Assembly: GCA_945872355.1 (NCBI GenBank)
Contig: CAMBZU010000027.1
Coordinates: forward strand, 1 to 39,127
DNA: 39,127 nt
Source: Chitinophaga pinensis
GTDB lineage: Bacteria > Bacteroidota > Bacteroidia > UBA4408
Direction: 5' to 3'
Below, in pieces: positions 2,815 to 36,821 of the stretch. The position numbers and the translations under genes are program-made. Position 1 is the first letter of the stretch, and each line of letters opens with the position of its first letter. Below the pieces are notes generated by a model, which was given only the letters and a program-made list of their open reading frames with translations, had not been told where the DNA came from and did not search any database.

Positions 2815-2936
2815 ATTATTTTCAAGTTTTAATTAATCGTTCTAAAAATCAAATTTTGCGCGAAATTAAAAAAAAATAGATACGAACGATGTTTTATTTT
2901 ATAACAATCACCATTTGTTAATTAATTTAACATGCT

Positions 2937-3314
2937 GAATTGTGAATTATGCTCTAGAAATTATGAATTAAGCTCTAGAAATTATGAATTGTGAATTATG
3001 CTCTAGAAATTATGAATTATGAATTGTGAATTAAGCACTAAAAATTATGAATTGTGAATTAAGCACTAAAAATTATGAATTGTGAATTATGAATTAAGCT
3101 CTAGAAATTATAAATTATGAATTGTGAATTAAGCTCTAGAAATTATGAATTGTGAATTAAGCTCTAGAAATTATGAGTTGTAAATTGTGAATTGTGAATT
3201 AAGCTATAGAAATCATGAATTATGAATTAAGCTCTAGAAATTATGAATTATGAATTCACAATTAAGAATTCACAATTAAGAATTAAAAATTAACCATTCA
3301 GCATTCACAATTAA
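2937..3314. repeat. Heptamer tandem array (54 units, unbroken 7-nt register)
   Basis: From base 2937 to 3314 the sequence can be cut into 54 consecutive heptamers with no insertion or deletion. The common units are GAATTAT, GAATTGT, GAATTAA, AAATTAT and GCTCTAG. Ten GCTCTAG-type units (seven exact, two GCACTAA, one GCTATAG) start at 2951, 2972, 3000, 3035, 3063, 3098, 3133, 3161, 3203 and 3231, always 21, 28, 35 or 42 bases apart. From 3252 the units read as the opposite strand (GAATTCA, CAATTAA). The array runs up to the stop codon of the gene at 3318-4364. Stops occur in every frame, so it is non-coding. It resembles the short heptameric repeats known in cyanobacteria and some Bacteroidota. 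Confidence 0.9.
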
Positions 3315-3317
3315 AAA

Positions 3318-4364
3318 TCAATCCACCCAATCAGCAATAAAAAGATTAGTATCTCTTGTGCCGTGGTTATTTCTATTTGAGGAAAAAATCAATTTTTTGC
3401 CATCATAACTAAACATGGGAAAAGCATTGAAAATACTTTTATTTGTAATGGCTTCAAGCCCTGTACCATCTATATTTATCATATACAATTGAAAATCATA
3501 TCCTCTTGTAGAATGATGGTTTGAAGAAAAAATAATTTTCTTACCAGCAGGGTGAAAGAATGGCGCCCAATTGGCTTTGCCAAGTTTTGTAATCTGTGTC
3601 AATTCAGAGCCATCAACATTGCAGGTATATATTTCCATATTGGTTGGTGCAACCAGTCCTTCAGCCAATAATGTTTTATACTCAATCACTTCTTCTGGTG
3701 CGGTTGGTCTTGAAGCTCTAAACACAAGTTTTTTACCATCTGGTGAGAAAAAAGCACCGCCATCATATCCTAAGCCATTGGTAATTTGCTTTAAATTTTT
3801 ACCGTCAATATCCATGGTCCACAATTCTAAATCACCTGAGCGGGTGGAGGTAAAGACTATTTTTTTTCCATCTGGCGATACCGTAGCTTCTGCATCATAA
3901 CCCGGATTATTTGTAAGTTGTGAAACTATTTTACCATTTAAATCAGCCACATAAATATCAAAACTTTCATACACTGCCCAAAGATATTTATTATCCTTTC
4001 TTGCTTCAGGTAAAGGCGGACAAGCCTTATCAGCAGCTTGAGTACCAGCATAAAGGATATGTTTTCCATCTTTTAAAAAGTAAGAACAAGTGGTTCTTCC
4101 TTCACCAGTACTAATCATTTTAGGCAGGTATGCCGAATCTTTTGCAGCTTTATTTATATCTAAGTTAAATATTTGATCGCAGTTTAAGCCCCATTTTTTG
4201 TTGTTCGATTGAAAAGATAAAGACTGGTTATCGAAACTAAAATAGGCTTCAGCATTGTCACCTCCATAGGTTAACTGTTGCAAATTTTTTAAATGTTTTT
4301 CATCAGTTGTTTGGGCAAAAGCAAAATTGCTTAACAAGATACACAAGGTCAATAATTTATACAT
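3318..4364 (-). CDS. Exported TolB-like PD40 beta-propeller protein
   Basis: The 348 residues start with a Sec signal peptide (MYKLLTLCILLSNFAFAQ). At least four WD40-like PD40 repeats follow, with the hallmark SPDGKKIVF: TVSPDGKKIVFTSTRSGDLE, FFSPDGKKLVFRASR, FFHPAGKKIIFSSN and MFSYDGKKLIFSSN. Each is followed by an LWTMDIDGKNLKQIT-type strand. This is the propeller fold of TolB, but there is no TolB N-terminal domain and no pal, tolA or tolR neighbour, so I do not call it tolB. It probably acts in the periplasm or at the surface as a binding platform. No T9SS sorting domain is present. Its stop codon touches the heptamer array. The T9SS gene at 4449 diverges from it with only 84 bases between them. 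Confidence 0.8.
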   Translation of the reverse strand: MYKLLTLCILLSNFAFAQTTDEKHLKNLQQLTYGGDNAEAYFSFDNQSLSFQSNNKKWGLNCDQIFNLDINKAAKDSAYLPKMISTGEGRTTCSYFLKDGKHILYAGTQAADKACPPLPEARKDNKYLWAVYESFDIYVADLNGKIVSQLTNNPGYDAEATVSPDGKKIVFTSTRSGDLELWTMDIDGKNLKQITNGLGYDGGAFFSPDGKKLVFRASRPTAPEEVIEYKTLLAEGLVAPTNMEIYTCNVDGSELTQITKLGKANWAPFFHPAGKKIIFSSNHHSTRGYDFQLYMINIDGTGLEAITNKSIFNAFPMFSYDGKKLIFSSNRNNHGTRDTNLFIADWVD

Positions 4365-12486: not shown

Positions 12487-13824
12487 TTGTTTAAAGATCC
12501 AGCCTACAAACACATTTGGAGCGTTTCTTACCCTATTATTTTGGGTGGAGTGGCGCAAACTATTATTAACATCACAGATTCCGCTTTCTTAGGTCGTATT
12601 AGTGAAGTAGCGCTTGGAGCCAGTGCAATAGCGGGTTTACTTTATGTAACTTTTATGATGTTGGGCTATGGTTTTGGCGTGGGTGTGCAAATCATTATCG
12701 CACGCTTAAATGGCGAAAAAAAATATCATGAAATGGGCAATGTGCTCGATCATTCGCTTTATTTTTTATTGAGTTTATCTGTAATTTTATTTGGATTTAT
12801 TTATTGGGGCGGTCCTTTCATATTAAGATATTTTGTAAAATCTCAAGCCATCTTAGCAGCCAGCGTAAGCTTTATTCAAATACGTAGTTTTGCTATCTTT
12901 TTTTCTTCTTTTGTATTTGTTATTAGAGGTTTTTTTACAGGCATTGCACAAACAAAAATTGTATTGTACACCACCGCTATTGTGGCCATATTAAATGTAA
13001 TTTTTAATTATTTGTTTGTGTTTGGCAATTTAGGTTTTCCGCGCATGGAAGTGGCAGGTTCAGCACTAGCAAGTACTTTGGCCGAATTTTTTGCTGCCAT
13101 TTTTGCATTAATATACACCTTTAAAACCGTTGATTTAAAAAAATACCAGCTCTTTACTTTTCATAAATTTAATTTTGCTTACCTTAAAGATGTATTGCTC
13201 ACAGCGGCTCCCGTGATGTTGCAAATGTTCATTTCATTAACATCCTGGTTCATATTTTTTATGATTGTGGAGCAAATGGGCGAACGCTCGCTAGCCATCA
13301 GTAACATCATCAGAAATGCCTATATGATTTTAATGATTCCTTTAATGGGATTTAGTTCGGCCACAAATACCTTAGTAAGCACACTTGTTGGCCAAGGCAG
13401 GCACAACGAAGTTTTTAAAATGATTAAAAAGATAGCTGTTTTTAGCTTCTGCATCACCTTATTGTTTATGTTTATTTTAAACATTGCCCCAAGCATTATG
13501 CTAGGTATTTTTACCAATGATAGCGTGCTTATCCAAGCTACAATTCCCTCCTTGCGCGTTATTGATGGTTCTCTGTTAATGTTTTCTGTTTCATCCATTT
13601 TATTGAGTGCAGTATCGGGCAGTGGCAATACAGCCATGAGTTTATTTATCGAAATTATTACAATAAGCTTTTATTTATTTGCCACTTACATTATTGCCAT
13701 CTATTTAAAGCTACAAATAGAGTGGGTGTGGAGCGTAGAGTATGTTTATTTCCTGTTTATGGGAGGCGTAGCATTCATTTATTTGAGGCACGCCAAAAGA
13801 ACCAATTTTGGGACTACTATTTAA
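12487..13824 (+). CDS. MATE family efflux transporter
   Basis: This 445-residue membrane protein has about twelve hydrophobic segments in two halves, as in MATE antiporters that export drugs or metabolites in exchange for Na+ or H+. The N-terminal segment SYPIILGGVAQTIINITDSA and the loop GVGVQIIIARLNGE are family hallmarks, and TNTLVSTLVGQGRHNEV is the matching motif in the second half. No ATG precedes the conserved region. The TTG at 12487 is the best start, with an in-frame stop ten codons upstream. The final 20 codons and downstream sequence are repeated at 14191-14271. The substrate cannot be deduced from the context. Confidence 0.88.
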   Translation: MFKDPAYKHIWSVSYPIILGGVAQTIINITDSAFLGRISEVALGASAIAGLLYVTFMMLGYGFGVGVQIIIARLNGEKKYHEMGNVLDHSLYFLLSLSVILFGFIYWGGPFILRYFVKSQAILAASVSFIQIRSFAIFFSSFVFVIRGFFTGIAQTKIVLYTTAIVAILNVIFNYLFVFGNLGFPRMEVAGSALASTLAEFFAAIFALIYTFKTVDLKKYQLFTFHKFNFAYLKDVLLTAAPVMLQMFISLTSWFIFFMIVEQMGERSLAISNIIRNAYMILMIPLMGFSSATNTLVSTLVGQGRHNEVFKMIKKIAVFSFCITLLFMFILNIAPSIMLGIFTNDSVLIQATIPSLRVIDGSLLMFSVSSILLSAVSGSGNTAMSLFIEIITISFYLFATYIIAIYLKLQIEWVWSVEYVYFLFMGGVAFIYLRHAKRTNFGTTI

Positions 13825-13833
13825 ATAATTTGG

Positions 13834-13906
13834 GCAAATCCAACACGTGAAAAACGTGTTGGTCGGGCTATGCGCGCTACGTGGTAGCTGCTTCTATCCC
13901 TTTTGC
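13834..13906 (+). ncRNA. Structured intergenic motif, copy 1
   Basis: The outer stem is GCAAA (13834-13838) with TTTGC (13902-13906). Inside it lies a 9-bp hairpin (CCAACACGT with ACGTGTTGG, loop 13849-13853), then the core TCGGGCTATGCGC (13863-13875), then a 5-bp hairpin (GCTAC with GTAGC, loop GTG), then the core TGCTTCTATCCC (13889-13900). The layout matches copies 2 and 3, but both hairpins have different sequences that still pair. It begins ten bases after the MATE stop codon on the same strand. It may be a 3' UTR structure, a small RNA, or a palindromic mobile unit. I cannot confirm a match to a catalogued family such as Flavo-1. Confidence 0.55.
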
Positions 13907-13967
13907 GGGTTTGGTATATAGATTAAACTTTCTTGTTCTTGTTCCAGCTCAATATTAATTGTTCATC

Positions 13968-14019
13968 ATTCCTTGTAACTTGTTCATAATTCAATTAAAC
14001 CAGCCTTAATGATTTCTAT
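13968..14019 (+). repeat. 52-bp direct repeat, copy 1
   Basis: This stretch matches 16765-16816 at 47 of 52 positions with no gaps and in the same orientation. It begins ATTCCTTGTAACTTGTTC and ends GATTTCTAT. The two copies bracket the propeller gene at 14488-16479. No coding capacity is evident. Confidence 0.8.
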
Positions 14020-14042
14020 TACTTTATATTAAAACCGATTCA

Positions 14043-14190
14043 TTTGCTGCCGCAAGCGTCCACGCTTGTGATGCAACACTTTCAAAGCAATAGTTTAATT
14101 TTTTACACTAATCTTGTAAAATTTTCAATTACAATTTAATTTTGTAACCCATAACGCTTAACCACAGGCGTGGACGCCTGCGGTAGCGAA
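14043..14190. mobile_element. MITE-like element with 29-bp imperfect terminal inverted repeats
   Basis: The left arm is 14043-14071 and the right arm 14162-14190. The right arm read on the other strand matches the left at 24 of 29 positions. Each arm is itself an inverted repeat around AAGCGT-CC-ACGCTT or AGGCGT-GG-ACGCCT, so the element is a pair of facing palindromes, as in REPIN units. The interior is A/T-rich and non-coding. A degenerate relative is at 16573-16700. The right end abuts exactly the second copy of the MATE gene tail at 14191. No transposase gene is in the window. Confidence 0.65.
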
Positions 14191-14254
14191 GGGAGGCGTT
14201 GCATGGCTCTATTTGAGGCACGCCAAAAGAACCAATTTCGGTACTACTATTTAA
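14191..14254 (+). pseudogene. Remnant of a second MATE gene (last 20 codons and stop)
   Basis: Positions 14191-14271 match 13761-13841 at 73 of 81 positions with no gap. Translated from 14192 the segment gives GGVAWLYLRHAKRTNFGTTI and a TAA stop, against GGVAFIYLRHAKRTNFGTTI in the intact MATE gene. Three of the seven base changes in the coding part are synonymous third-position changes, and the other four change two adjacent codons. That pattern suggests the tail derives from a functional paralogue or from another strain's copy, not from long-dead DNA. The remnant has no start of its own and is cut off by the inverted-repeat element upstream. Confidence 0.75.
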
Positions 14255-14263
14255 GTAATTTGG

Positions 14264-14330
14264 GCAAATCCCTCCTGCGGAGGGAGCAGGCTGTCCGCGG
14301 TACACGGTACCTTGCTTCCATCCTTTTTGC
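14264..14330 (+). ncRNA. Structured intergenic motif, copy 2
   Basis: The outer stem is GCAAA (14264-14268) with TTTGC (14326-14330). The first hairpin is 6 bp (CCCTCC with GGAGGG, loop TGC). The core AGCAGGCTGTCCGC spans 14285-14298. The second hairpin is 5 bp (GGTAC with GTACC, loop ACG). The core TTGCTTCCATCC spans 14312-14323. Compared with copy 1 the hairpin stems are entirely different in sequence yet complete, while the cores are similar. It follows the MATE tail remnant at the same distance (ten bases) at which copy 1 follows the intact gene. Confidence 0.55.
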
Positions 14331-14487
14331 GGGTTAAGTATTTCACTTAAAACTTTTCGTTTGTTATTTGTTGTATCACCCGATGGTTCAGATTTCCATC
14401 GTAATTAGGATTCAATTTTTTCTTTTTACTATTATAGTTTCAGTGAACTATCAATAAAAGAATTTCTTGTTCGTTATATTTGTCATC

Positions 14488-16572: not shown

Positions 16573-16700
16573 TGGCTACCTGAAAGTCCACGCTTGTGAT
16601 TCAACACTTTACAAGCAATAGTTTAATTAAAATTGCAATTCCTAATTAGTTTTGTAGCTCATAACGCTTAACCACAGGCATGTACGCCTGCGGTAGCGAA
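16573..16700. repeat. Degenerate copy of the MITE-like element
   Basis: The right arm (16672-16700) is nearly identical to that at 14162-14190, ending GCCTGCGGTAGCGAA. The left arm keeps GTCCACGCTTGTGA but has lost the symmetry of its outer half. The interior shares segments such as CAACACTTT, AAGCAATAGTTTAATT and CATAACGCTTAACCACAGG with the first copy and is about 20 bases shorter. It lies 93 bases after the stop of the propeller gene. Confidence 0.65.
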
Positions 16701-16764
16701 TGCCTTTGTTACCCAATATATCGTTCAAACGATTAAATTTTCTCCTTCAAAATTCAAATTTATA

Positions 16765-16816
16765 ATTCCTTGTTTCTTGTTCATTATTCAATTAAACAAG
16801 CCTCAATGATTTCTAT
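16765..16816 (+). repeat. 52-bp direct repeat, copy 2
   Basis: Matches 13968-14019 at 47 of 52 positions. On this side of the propeller gene the order is element then 52-bp repeat; on the other side it is 52-bp repeat then element. It ends ten bases before the stop codon of the convergent phosphatase gene. Confidence 0.8.
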
Positions 16817-16825
16817 AAAGTTCAA

Positions 16826-19800
16826 CTAAAACCTAATCCCCACCACCAAAATATCATCTACCTGATCATAGCCTTCTTTCCAATCTTTCAAAAACTGATT
16901 CAGATGATTGTATTGCTCAAGCATATTTTTATCCTGCGCAGCACTTAATATTTCTTTAAATTTTTTCGACATTAATTTCTTTCCTTTCGGACCACCAAAT
17001 TGATCTGCAAAACCATCGGTAAATAAATAAATGGTATCGCCTTCATAATAATTTAAAGTATGATTAGTAAATTCTCTTTTTAATTCATTTTGCAAACCAC
17101 CAATAGGGTGTTTGTCTGCTTTAATTTCTTCTATAATAAGTCCTTGCTTATTTGCAGCAAATTTTTCTTTGTATTCGGCACCTCTGTATATTAACAATGA
17201 TCTAATAGCACCTGCATATTCTATTTGTTGCTTTTTTCTGTTGATGTGGCAAAGCGCAATATCCATTCCATCGCGCGTTTCGGTTTCTTGCTGCTTAAGC
17301 GCTTCTCTAATACCAATGTGTAATTTTTCAAGTGTATCAGAAGGCCTAAAATCAGCTGTTTCTTGTACAATTTGATTCAGCAAAGAACTTCCTATCATAC
17401 ACATAAAGGCACCTGGTACACCATGTCCTGTGCAATCAGCTACAGCAACAAAAATATCATTTTCATCCGATTGATTTTTTGATTTCGCTTTTGTATCGGC
17501 AAACCAGTAAAAATCACCACTTACAATGTCTTTTGGTTGATATAAAATAAATGCTTTCGGGAAAATTTTTCTGAACGATTGTGTGCTCGGTAAAATAGCT
17601 TCTTGTATTCTTTTGGCATAATTAATACTATCTGTTATTTCTTTGTTTTTTGCAAGAATTTCAGCGTTCTTGTCTGTCAATGATTGATTTTTTTGTGCAA
17701 TCTCAATGGTTCTATCTGTCACTTGTTTTTCAAGCATTAACTTTGCTGCACGCAAATAACGTGTTCTATATGCAATGTAACTTGAAACAATAATGATGGT
17801 TAAAACAAGCATTAATATTAGAAACCAAGTACGCTTATAAAATGGAGGAATAATTTCAAAAGCAAATGTGATATCTTTATCTATACAAATACCCTCGCTA
17901 CTGCAAGCCTTAAGTATAAATTTATATTCACCCGGCGGCAAATGTGTATAAGCTACTTTATTAATGCCATAGTCTATATGCCACGCTTCATCTAGTCCTT
18001 CTAACTTATAGGTATATTTTATTTTTGATGCATTTACAAAACTTAAACCTATAAAGTTAAAAGTAATATCGTTCTTGTTATAGCTAAAAGTTGGATTAGC
18101 ACTAAGAGGGTAAGGGGTTGAAAATATTTGATAATTGATTAAATACACTATAGGAGTGGCTGACTTTGTTTGCTCTTCGTTAAGTCTTAAAATAGTTGCA
18201 CCATTAATAGTTCCAAACCAAAGGGCTCCTTTATTATCATTAAAAACCGCATTGTTTTTTGTTTCAATAGCTGTAAATCCTTCTTGATTTCCGTAGTTTA
18301 TAAACTTGTTATTTTGAACATTTATTTTAACCAAGCCCATGTTGGTTGCTGCGTATACATTACCAATTGAATCGCTGATAAGCGAAGTGATATAATCAGA
18401 AATAAGTCCATTTTTTACATTGTATTGTGTAATAGTGTTACCTTTCTTTTTATACAAGCCTCCACCTTCGGTACCTATCCATAAATAATCATCTTTATCG
18501 CTACAAAAACTAGTAGCACTATTGTGATTAATTCCATTGGTATATCGTTTAAAACCAGTGGCATCTTTACACCAAAGTCCCGATTCTCGGGTGCCAAGCC
18601 ACACAATACCATCTTTTGTTTGATGCATTTTTATAATGTGCAGTTTATCCAATGCTGAAACATCCTTAAATTCAAAGGTGTTTAAATTATAGGTGGTTAA
18701 GCCTAAACTTGTTGCAATCCAAAGCTGATTATTAATGATGGCTAAATCGTTTACTAAAGATAGATTGATACTCAAGGTTTGAATTCTTTTTTTTGTTTTG
18801 GCATCAAAAACTCCAATATCTCCTTTAAAAGTTGATACAAATATTTTATCGCCTTGTTTGCAAAAAGAGGTAACCAAATTATTTCTTAAATCATTTTTTA
18901 AATCAAGGTGTTTAATTTTTTTAATGGTATAATTTTTATCTAAAGTAACAATATCAATCCCTTCATTTGTGCCTAACCAAAAATTTCCTTCAACATCTTG
19001 GGTAACACAATTAACAATTGAATTATTTATGCCTTCATTTTTTGCAAAGTGTATAAATTTAAAACCTTTGAACTGCGATACTCCTTCGTCTTGCATGCCA
19101 GCCCACAAAGTATTTTCGCGGTCAACAAAAAGGCTTCTTAATTTATTGTTTTTTAAACCATTGTTTTCAGTAATAGAAATAATTTCATCATTTTGAATGC
19201 AAGCAATACCACCCTGCCATGTTCCCACCCAAACAGTATTGTTTTCGGCTGGTGCAAGTGATATAATAAAATTAGATTTTAAACCTTGTTCCTCGTTTAA
19301 TTTAATACATGTGCTATCTTTTGCATTAAATTTTACTAAACCTTGTTCGAATGAACCAAACCAATAATTTCCAACTTTATCCTGCGTCATACAGGTATAA
19401 TTTAAAAAAGGAAAGCCAGTTGGTTTAAAAAATATAAAGCTATCCTTTAATGCATCGTAATATTTAATTCCTATTTGTGTAACAAACCAAATTTTACCAT
19501 TGGCATCAATAAAGGTACAGTAAACTTGATCATCTAATTTCTCCTTAATTCCATAGGCTTTATAGCTTTTAGTTTTCGGATTTAATTTTATAACGCCGCT
19601 ACCTATAGTACCTATCCAAATGTTACCCTTTTTATCTTTGATGATGTCGCATATTCTACTTGGTTTTTCTTTTACATTTAATGGAAAATTCACAAACTTA
19701 TTTCCGTTTTGGTAGGAAAGTTTACCATAAGAATGACCAATCCAAAGTTGGCCATCATCATCTTCACAAATACTATTCACAGCGGCTTCACTAAGGCCAT

Positions 19801-36665: not shown

Positions 36666-36684
36666 ATTAATTGTAGTGATTAGG

Positions 36685-36797
36685 GCGCAACCCCACCTTC
36701 CCGATTGTTCGGGAGGTGCGGTCAGGCCATCCGCTATATCCTTAATGCAGCGCAAATTCAACGCCTTATTAAAGGTTGCCGCTCCTGTCCTTTGCGC
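36685..36797 (+). ncRNA. Structured intergenic motif, copy 3
   Basis: The outer stem is GCGCAA (36685-36690) with TTGCGC (36792-36797). The first hairpin is 10 bp with one bulge (CACCT-T-CCCGA with TCGGG-AGGTG, loop TTGT, 36694-36718). The core GGTCAGGCCATCCGC spans 36720-36734. The second arm is longer than in copies 1 and 2 and can close with CCTTAAT (36740-36746) against ATTAAAGG (36768-36775). The core TTGCCGCTCCTGTCC spans 36776-36790. It lies directly after the formate dehydrogenase alpha gene. The first hairpin could also help terminate transcription, but there is no T-run. Confidence 0.55.
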
Positions 36798-36821
36798 AAC
36801 TCATTTCCTATTTTATAAATT

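Follow-up and report, generated by a model that had tools for sequence, protein, structure and literature searches.

Repeats of Bacteroidota related to Flavo-1 are probably mobile folded-DNA elements with exchangeable hairpins

Introduction

The Flavo-1 family (RF01705) was described by Weinberg et al. 2010 (PMC2864571) and has been counted among the most abundant bacterial sRNA families (PMC9029176). For the F. psychrophilum transcriptome, the passages of PMC9723704 that deal with the family report its matches as sense or antisense indistinctly, many of them beyond transcribed regions. Another described group is that of REP elements and the TnpA_REP (RAYT) proteins. Beside genes of TnpA_REP subclass 2.6, Corneloup et al. 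(PMC6006769) mention atypical structures in Bacteroidetes, and in that part of their account the subclass itself is said to go without the tetranucleotide GT[AG]G.

A proposal of Flavo-1 as a DNA element was not found in those parts of the open-licence literature that treat the family, and priority is therefore not certain. Lastly, integron attC sites are used as the bottom strand, are recognised by their structure and have a hypervariable terminal structure.

Here we describe repeats found in a window of 39,127 nucleotides, contig CAMBZU010000027.1 of Chitinophaga pinensis (GCA_945872355.1), and their relatives in the host genome (G000) and other genomes. A first-pass annotation had pointed to two copies of a structured motif at 13834-14330, read as a selected RNA structure that possibly belongs to Flavo-1. 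The observation is confirmed as real and not an artefact, and it is larger than first stated.

Results

Copies in the window

The family consists of repeats of ~60-150 bp with the form of a three-way junction, made of a closing stem P1, a variable hairpin P2 and a stem P3 whose core is conserved and whose tip varies. Two covariance models were used, R1, built from seven short-P3 copies, and R2, a joint model that finds both subtypes. The two announced copies are present with a common order of parts, and the span 13834-14330 is exactly that of the outer stems of both (Table 1). On the + strand they share one plan: TTTGGGC, the P1 5' arm GCAAA, hairpin P2, a GGG core, two covarying pairs between mismatches, GC, hairpin P3, GC-TTCnAT-CCC and the P1 3' arm TTTGC. 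Copy 1 starts 4 nt past the stop codon of a MatE gene. The third copy matches RF01705 with its minus strand, at 36716-36805, with 37.1 bits (gathering score 42).

Table 1. Features of the three copies and of the MatE tail duplication in the window. Copies 1 and 2 are inside the training sets of both R1 and R2, whose scores for them are given.
Feature	Position	Strand	Basis
Copy 1, short-P3 subtype	13829..13910	+	R1 78.3 bits, R2 74.9 bits
Copy 1, P1 5' arm GCAAA (partner 13902-13906)	13834..13838	+	sequence, DNA fold
Copy 1, P2 hairpin CCAACACGT-GAAAA-ACGTGTTGG	13840..13862	+	sequence
Copy 1, P3 GGG-CTATGC-GC-GCTAC-GTG-GTAGC-T-GC-TTCTAT-CCC	13865..13900	+	sequence, pair counts
Copy 1, P1 3' arm TTTGC	13902..13906	+	sequence
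Copy 2, short-P3 subtype	14259..14334	+	R1 88.0 bits, R2 75.2 bits
Copy 2, P1 5' arm GCAAA (partner 14326-14330)	14264..14268	+	sequence
Copy 2, P2 hairpin CCCTCC-TGC-GGAGGG	14270..14284	+	sequence
Copy 2, P3 AGG-CTGTCC-GC-GGTAC-ACG-GTACC-TT-GC-TTCCAT-CCT	14288..14324	+	sequence
Copy 2, P1 3' arm TTTGC	14326..14330	+	sequence
Third copy, long-P3, Flavo-1 type	36680..36799	+	R2 38.4 bits (locus L020)
Segmental duplication source, MatE tail and element start	13761..13841	+	90% identical to 14191-14271
Duplicated MatE tail running into copy 2	14191..14271	+	90% identical to 13761-13841

The unguided fold of copy 1 (ViennaRNA, DNA parameters) is exactly the three-way junction, with z = -5.0 on the bottom strand, where 0 of 200 shuffles were as good, and z = -4.0 on the top strand. 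Copy 2 gives the same junction, more weakly (z = -1.7).

The hairpin stems had been called unrelated between the copies. This stands for P2 (CCAACACGT/ACGTGTTGG against CCCTCC/GGAGGG) but not for the P3 tips, where GCTAC/GTAGC and GGTAC/GTACC differ by one swapped pair out of five. At the P3 base the copies co-vary, GGG/CCC against AGG/CCT. The P2 hairpin of copy 1 has no second occurrence among the collected loci.

Copy 2 lies inside a segmental duplication, since the source segment, in which the MatE gene upstream has its final ~64 coding bases, recurs as the lead into it. The first-pass annotation had overlooked this duplication. The start of copy 2 is thus duplicated, yet its P2 is new: the P2 core CCTCCTGCGGAGG has one further site in the host genome, in the P2 slot of another element (G000:C18:28805), and the nearest relative of its P3 is the element copy at G000:C14:40846. 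To judge by these matches, copy 2 looks like a mosaic. It probably arose with the duplication of the MatE tail, its hairpins having later diverged or been exchanged.

The window holds other repeats as well. A ~148-bp element at 14043-14190, with 28-bp inverted ends (TTTGCTGCCGCAAGCGTCCACGCTTGTG / CACAGGCGTGGACGCCTGCGGTAGCGAA, 86% complementary), adjoins the duplicated MatE tail exactly, and pieces of its relatives are found 2.5 kb downstream, at 16586-16700. The segment 13962-14041 is repeated at 16759-16838, with the order changed. At 2882-3336, degenerate units of 7 bp and 14 bp (AATTATG/AATTGTG-like) form a long array whose repeat copies are spaced by multiples of 7.

Family and relation to Flavo-1

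Searching the host genome with R1 returned about 20 copies at E < 1e-8. Within the same class, at least one match was present in 110 of 247 sampled genomes and in 64 of 141 genera (E <= 1e-4), in a search that limited the number of matches counted for each genome. The expected recurrence in Bacteroidota is borne out. Together, the alignments A6 and A7 comprise 127 different copies, taken from the host and from other genomes. The short-P3 subtype, assigned by P3 length, makes up ~70 of the 127 and falls mostly outside the Rfam Flavo-1 family.

As for the suspected link to Flavo-1, it is upheld by the third copy and by 13 sibling copies in the host genome that pass the RF01705 gathering score. 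The match to Rfam is uneven: the siblings do match Flavo-1, but the RF01705 search of copies 1 and 2 themselves gave no match at E<=0.5, and the third copy stays below the cut-off. R1, which was trained on short-P3 copies only, recovers the Rfam-passing Flavo-1 copies C9 (43.4 bits, E 9e-8) and C121. A homologous core, GGG..TCC-GC / GC-TTC..CCC, is common to our copies and Flavo-1. Weak Rfam matches to SprX, MIR4416 and snoR100, far under their cut-offs, were taken as chance.

A search for carriage by plasmids gave no plasmid record. In phages there were two weak partial matches, both in Microcystis phages, and the core pattern was seen in 28 of 2.9 million viral contigs.

Pairing under selection

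Paired cells reach 95.2% in A7 and 94.2% in A6; the corresponding shuffles give 70% and 76%, and slid controls 37-48%. Pairs changed on both sides number 17 of 20 in A7 and 19 of 20 in A6. P1, the P3 base and the P3 stem are 96-100% paired. For P2 the value in A6 is lower (80%), in part an effect of forcing hairpins of unequal length into one register. The seven host-genome copies show the same picture, with 96.4% paired cells against 83% when shuffled and 9 pairs changed on both sides. Intrastrand pairing is therefore selected, and the covariation first noticed in two copies is genuine across the 127.

Exchange of hairpins

Among copies of the same alignment, a stretch of P2 of 11 nt or more is common to 41 pairs, where shuffles give 0.2, and in many of these pairs P3 is different. 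Such stretches can also recur in the P3 of another copy, with 16 cases of P2-P3 sharing against 0.8 in shuffles. In genome G043 the palindrome CCCAACA..TGTTGGG has at least 100 copies. Of 15 that were sampled, 10 belong to elements, where four occupy P2 and six occupy P3. Whole hairpins thus pass from copy to copy and from one slot (P2 or P3) to the other. Conversion, template switching and insertion are candidate routes. The covariation of the hairpins is real, but much of it is whole-hairpin replacement and not base-by-base compensation. It follows that cassette swapping can inflate covariation statistics beyond compensatory mutation.

The G043 palindrome was also seen outside recognisable elements (e.g. 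L371, L376 and L378) and may therefore be a separate repeat.

Mobility and occupancy

Several duplicate copies lie in unrelated flanks. Two copies on different contigs of G055 (L246/L247) are identical over 62 bp, two in G016 (L080/L095) are 98.6% identical and two in G009 (L082/L097) are 94% identical. Other pairs, L061/L062 and L065/L066, have one flank in common. The identity of duplicates runs from TTTGGGC to a few bases past the P1 3' arm, with the border consensus TnwTTT-GGGC...GC-RR. What is copied is a unit with precise ends, TTTGGGC and GC(RR).

Occupancy is specific to lineages. At the MatE locus the element is absent in all three congeners tested. In G002 the orthologous sites behind MatE and at L067, L010, L013, L011 and L063 are without it, and in G001 and G003 it is absent wherever checked; these empty sites are too diverged for a base-by-base reading of the insertion point. 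The L056 and L059 sites are occupied in G002, with different hairpins. At the L059 site the start TTAGGGC, the core CCATCC and the 5' arm of P1 (GCAAA) persist, P2 is changed and a long P3 stands instead of a short one; replacement thus occurs in place.

At the L056 site, 7-8 nt past the same Fe-S protein gene, the two species have elements of different subfamilies (L056 in G000:C90, L077 in G002:C234), which suggests repeated insertion or conversion at this spot. A further repeat of ~130 bp, AATACCAATTGCATTTATTTTTTAG...AGTGTAATCGGTATAA, has at least 25 copies in G002 at 75-96% identity and often adjoins the three-way-junction element; in G000 it is found beside L052, L055, L061 and L063.

Folded strand and position relative to genes

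In the P1 and P3 cells we counted 1611 Watson-Crick pairs, 7 G.T (0.4%) and 10 A.C, a low wobble reached although R2, as an RNA model, rewards G.U on the strand it describes. In tRNA stems of the same loci, a small control of 8 predictions of which one is probably false, G.U makes up 20 of 170 pairs (12%). The difference has a Fisher p = 1.7e-16, which is indicative, as copies are related and rows are not independent.

Three mismatches of the lower P3 are conserved, as pyrimidine pairs on the top strand. There m1 is C.T in 109 of 125 copies or T.C in 12 of 125, n4 is T.C in 121 of 125 and n6 is C.T in 109 of 125. The two pairs between them co-vary and are Watson-Crick in 125 of 125 (b2) and 121 of 125 (b3). 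Read on the bottom strand, all three mismatches are G.A or A.G, and m1 even switches side. G.A pairs are stable in DNA and RNA alike. Because the conserved C.T mismatches become G.A there, the bottom strand is probably the one that folds. Near-zero wobble together with purine mismatches on the bottom strand is the pattern expected of a folded single DNA strand, and it favours folded DNA over RNA.

With a co-oriented upstream gene, 39 of 76 copies start <=40 nt past its stop codon, against 10 of 56 in the antisense arrangement (p = 1e-4), and in stop-adjacent copies the TTTGGGC end faces the gene. The space just past stop codons is preferred, and the promoter side is avoided (3 of 112 copies within 40 nt); either target choice or selection may lie behind this. 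No bias for a replication strand was seen (12 against 19, p = 0.28) in two genomes, closed or nearly so, whose skew could be read; a third genome, with no readable skew, was left out of this count.

The TnwTTTG border was also considered as a promoter. The Bacteroidota promoter consensus is TAnnTTTG, and the position where it has A is mostly T in the element, so this reading was rejected.

The stop-codon bias is the best argument for a structured RNA. Such an RNA might be a 3' UTR element read in sense along with the upstream gene and serving as terminator, stabiliser or processing site, which the bias would fit also, or it might be a bottom-strand sRNA as in Rfam. Upstream genes are oftener co-oriented (76 against 49, p = 0.02), covariation is strong, Rfam lists RF01705 as an sRNA, and site and structure can outlast a change of hairpins (L056/L077 and L059/L200). 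We nevertheless consider such an RNA unlikely. G.U is nearly absent where tRNAs have 12%. Furthermore, the mismatches point to the bottom strand, whereas the transcript of a stop-adjacent copy would come from the top one. The orientation to genes is mixed (++38, +-32, --23, -+23), and the relevant passages on F. psychrophilum give Flavo-1 no consistent sense or antisense placement (PMC9723704).

The initial proposal of a selected RNA structure is not supported, given the near absence of wobble, the marking of the bottom strand by the mismatches and the mobility of copies in both orientations. A 3' UTR element, an sRNA and a mobile palindromic unit had all been left as options; the mobile unit is the best supported of these and the RNA forms are less so.

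Candidate movers

No recurrent neighbour gene was found around the elements, with the exception of one RAYT group in the host genome, where all 4 loci of one paralogue group are near an element. The host has about nine RAYT-like genes, and one of the proteins reaches 101 bits with NF047646, whose cut-off is 80. This association, together with the atypical structures beside subclass 2.6 genes in the account of Corneloup et al. (PMC6006769), would agree with a cognate REP-like element of Bacteroidota TnpA_REP subclass 2.6. This seems very improbable, since the host RAYTs bear a palindrome of their own, CCTGAGCGTAGTTTCCGAACTACGCTC, and the conserved RAYT unit does not include the element. Elsewhere, only 1 of 80 named Bacteroidota RAYT loci has an element nearby, and PF01797 does not co-occur with the element (25 of 30 against 31 of 44, p = 0.27); G016 has recent copies and no PF01797 match. 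The tetranucleotide GT[AG]G at the hairpin foot is absent from the element consensus (border TnwTTTGGGC ... GC(RR)). RAYT is not supported as cognate transposase, as the host RAYTs own a separate REP and the element is near a single one of the named loci.

The host RAYT group itself (G000 contigs C117, C8, C2 and C3; L043-L046) consists of related genes for REP-associated tyrosine transposases, some broken by stops, with the palindrome CCTGAGCGTAGTTTCCGAACTACGCTC flanking them.

We also weighed an attC-like site, at which a tyrosine recombinase would act on the folded single strand of DNA and recognise its structure, with the terminal hairpin free to vary. The bottom-strand fold, hypervariable hairpins beside conserved unpaired features and the exchange of modules at conserved cores agree with it. 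However, no integrase is a recurrent neighbour, copies are single and dispersed by ordinary genes with no cassette arrays, and attC core sites were not seen by eye. We would give this reading little weight.

Discussion

In our reading each of these repeats is probably a mobile element of folded DNA whose hairpins can be exchanged, and Flavo-1 would be one arm of it. Such an element would be non-coding DNA of 60-150 bp whose bottom strand, when single-stranded, folds into the P1/P2/P3 three-way junction. A trans-acting protein may recognise the folded strand through core and junction, not through hairpin sequence, and the same protein would move or copy that strand, in the manner of TnpA on IS200/IS605 ends, TnpA_REP on REPs or IntI on attC. 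Hairpin tips would need only to be hairpins, and any palindrome might substitute, which would explain a complete change of stem with the pairing kept.

A broader proposal is more tentative, and we find it somewhat doubtful as it stands. Flavo-1 and its relatives could form a single superfamily of mobile elements that are recognised by their structure as single-stranded DNA and are moved by some further enzyme. Each would have two sockets for hairpins, into which unrelated palindromes are exchanged as cassettes. If true, what is catalogued as an RNA family would be a DNA element, and the capture of hairpins to replace stems would be a new mode of nucleic-acid structure evolution.

Flavo-1, a family without a function in Rfam, gains from this analysis a full anatomy, a missing subtype and evidence for DNA over RNA. 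Near-zero wobble with strand-specific purine mismatches is also a simple, reusable test to tell folded-DNA elements from RNAs in covariation data.

Compared with known systems, the element resembles integron attC sites in its probably folded bottom strand, its proposed recognition by structure and its hypervariable terminal part. Unlike them, it has no integrase or cassettes, its core is another one and it is dispersed beside unrelated genes. With IS200/IS605 and their non-autonomous derivatives it shares precise ends, a T-rich 5' border, subterminal hairpins and no obvious target duplication, but it shows no association with a Y1 transposase and the whole element is only 60-150 bp.

REPs and REPINs with TnpA_REP are likewise short, extragenic, palindromic, geneless, dispersed and probably recognised as folded single-stranded DNA. 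The element differs from them in being a three-way junction and not one hairpin, in its missing GT[AG]G foot, in being unlinked to RAYT genes and in stems that are swapped wholesale.

Finally, Flavo-1 RNA (RF01705, PMC2864571) has the same core, and the third copy aligns with it end to end on the minus strand. The strand modelled for Flavo-1 is the one whose mismatches become G.A. The Rfam model covers the P3 arm and its cores in 76 nt; P1 and P2 are the new parts. That family is filed in Rfam as an sRNA, whereas the evidence here favours a mobile DNA element.
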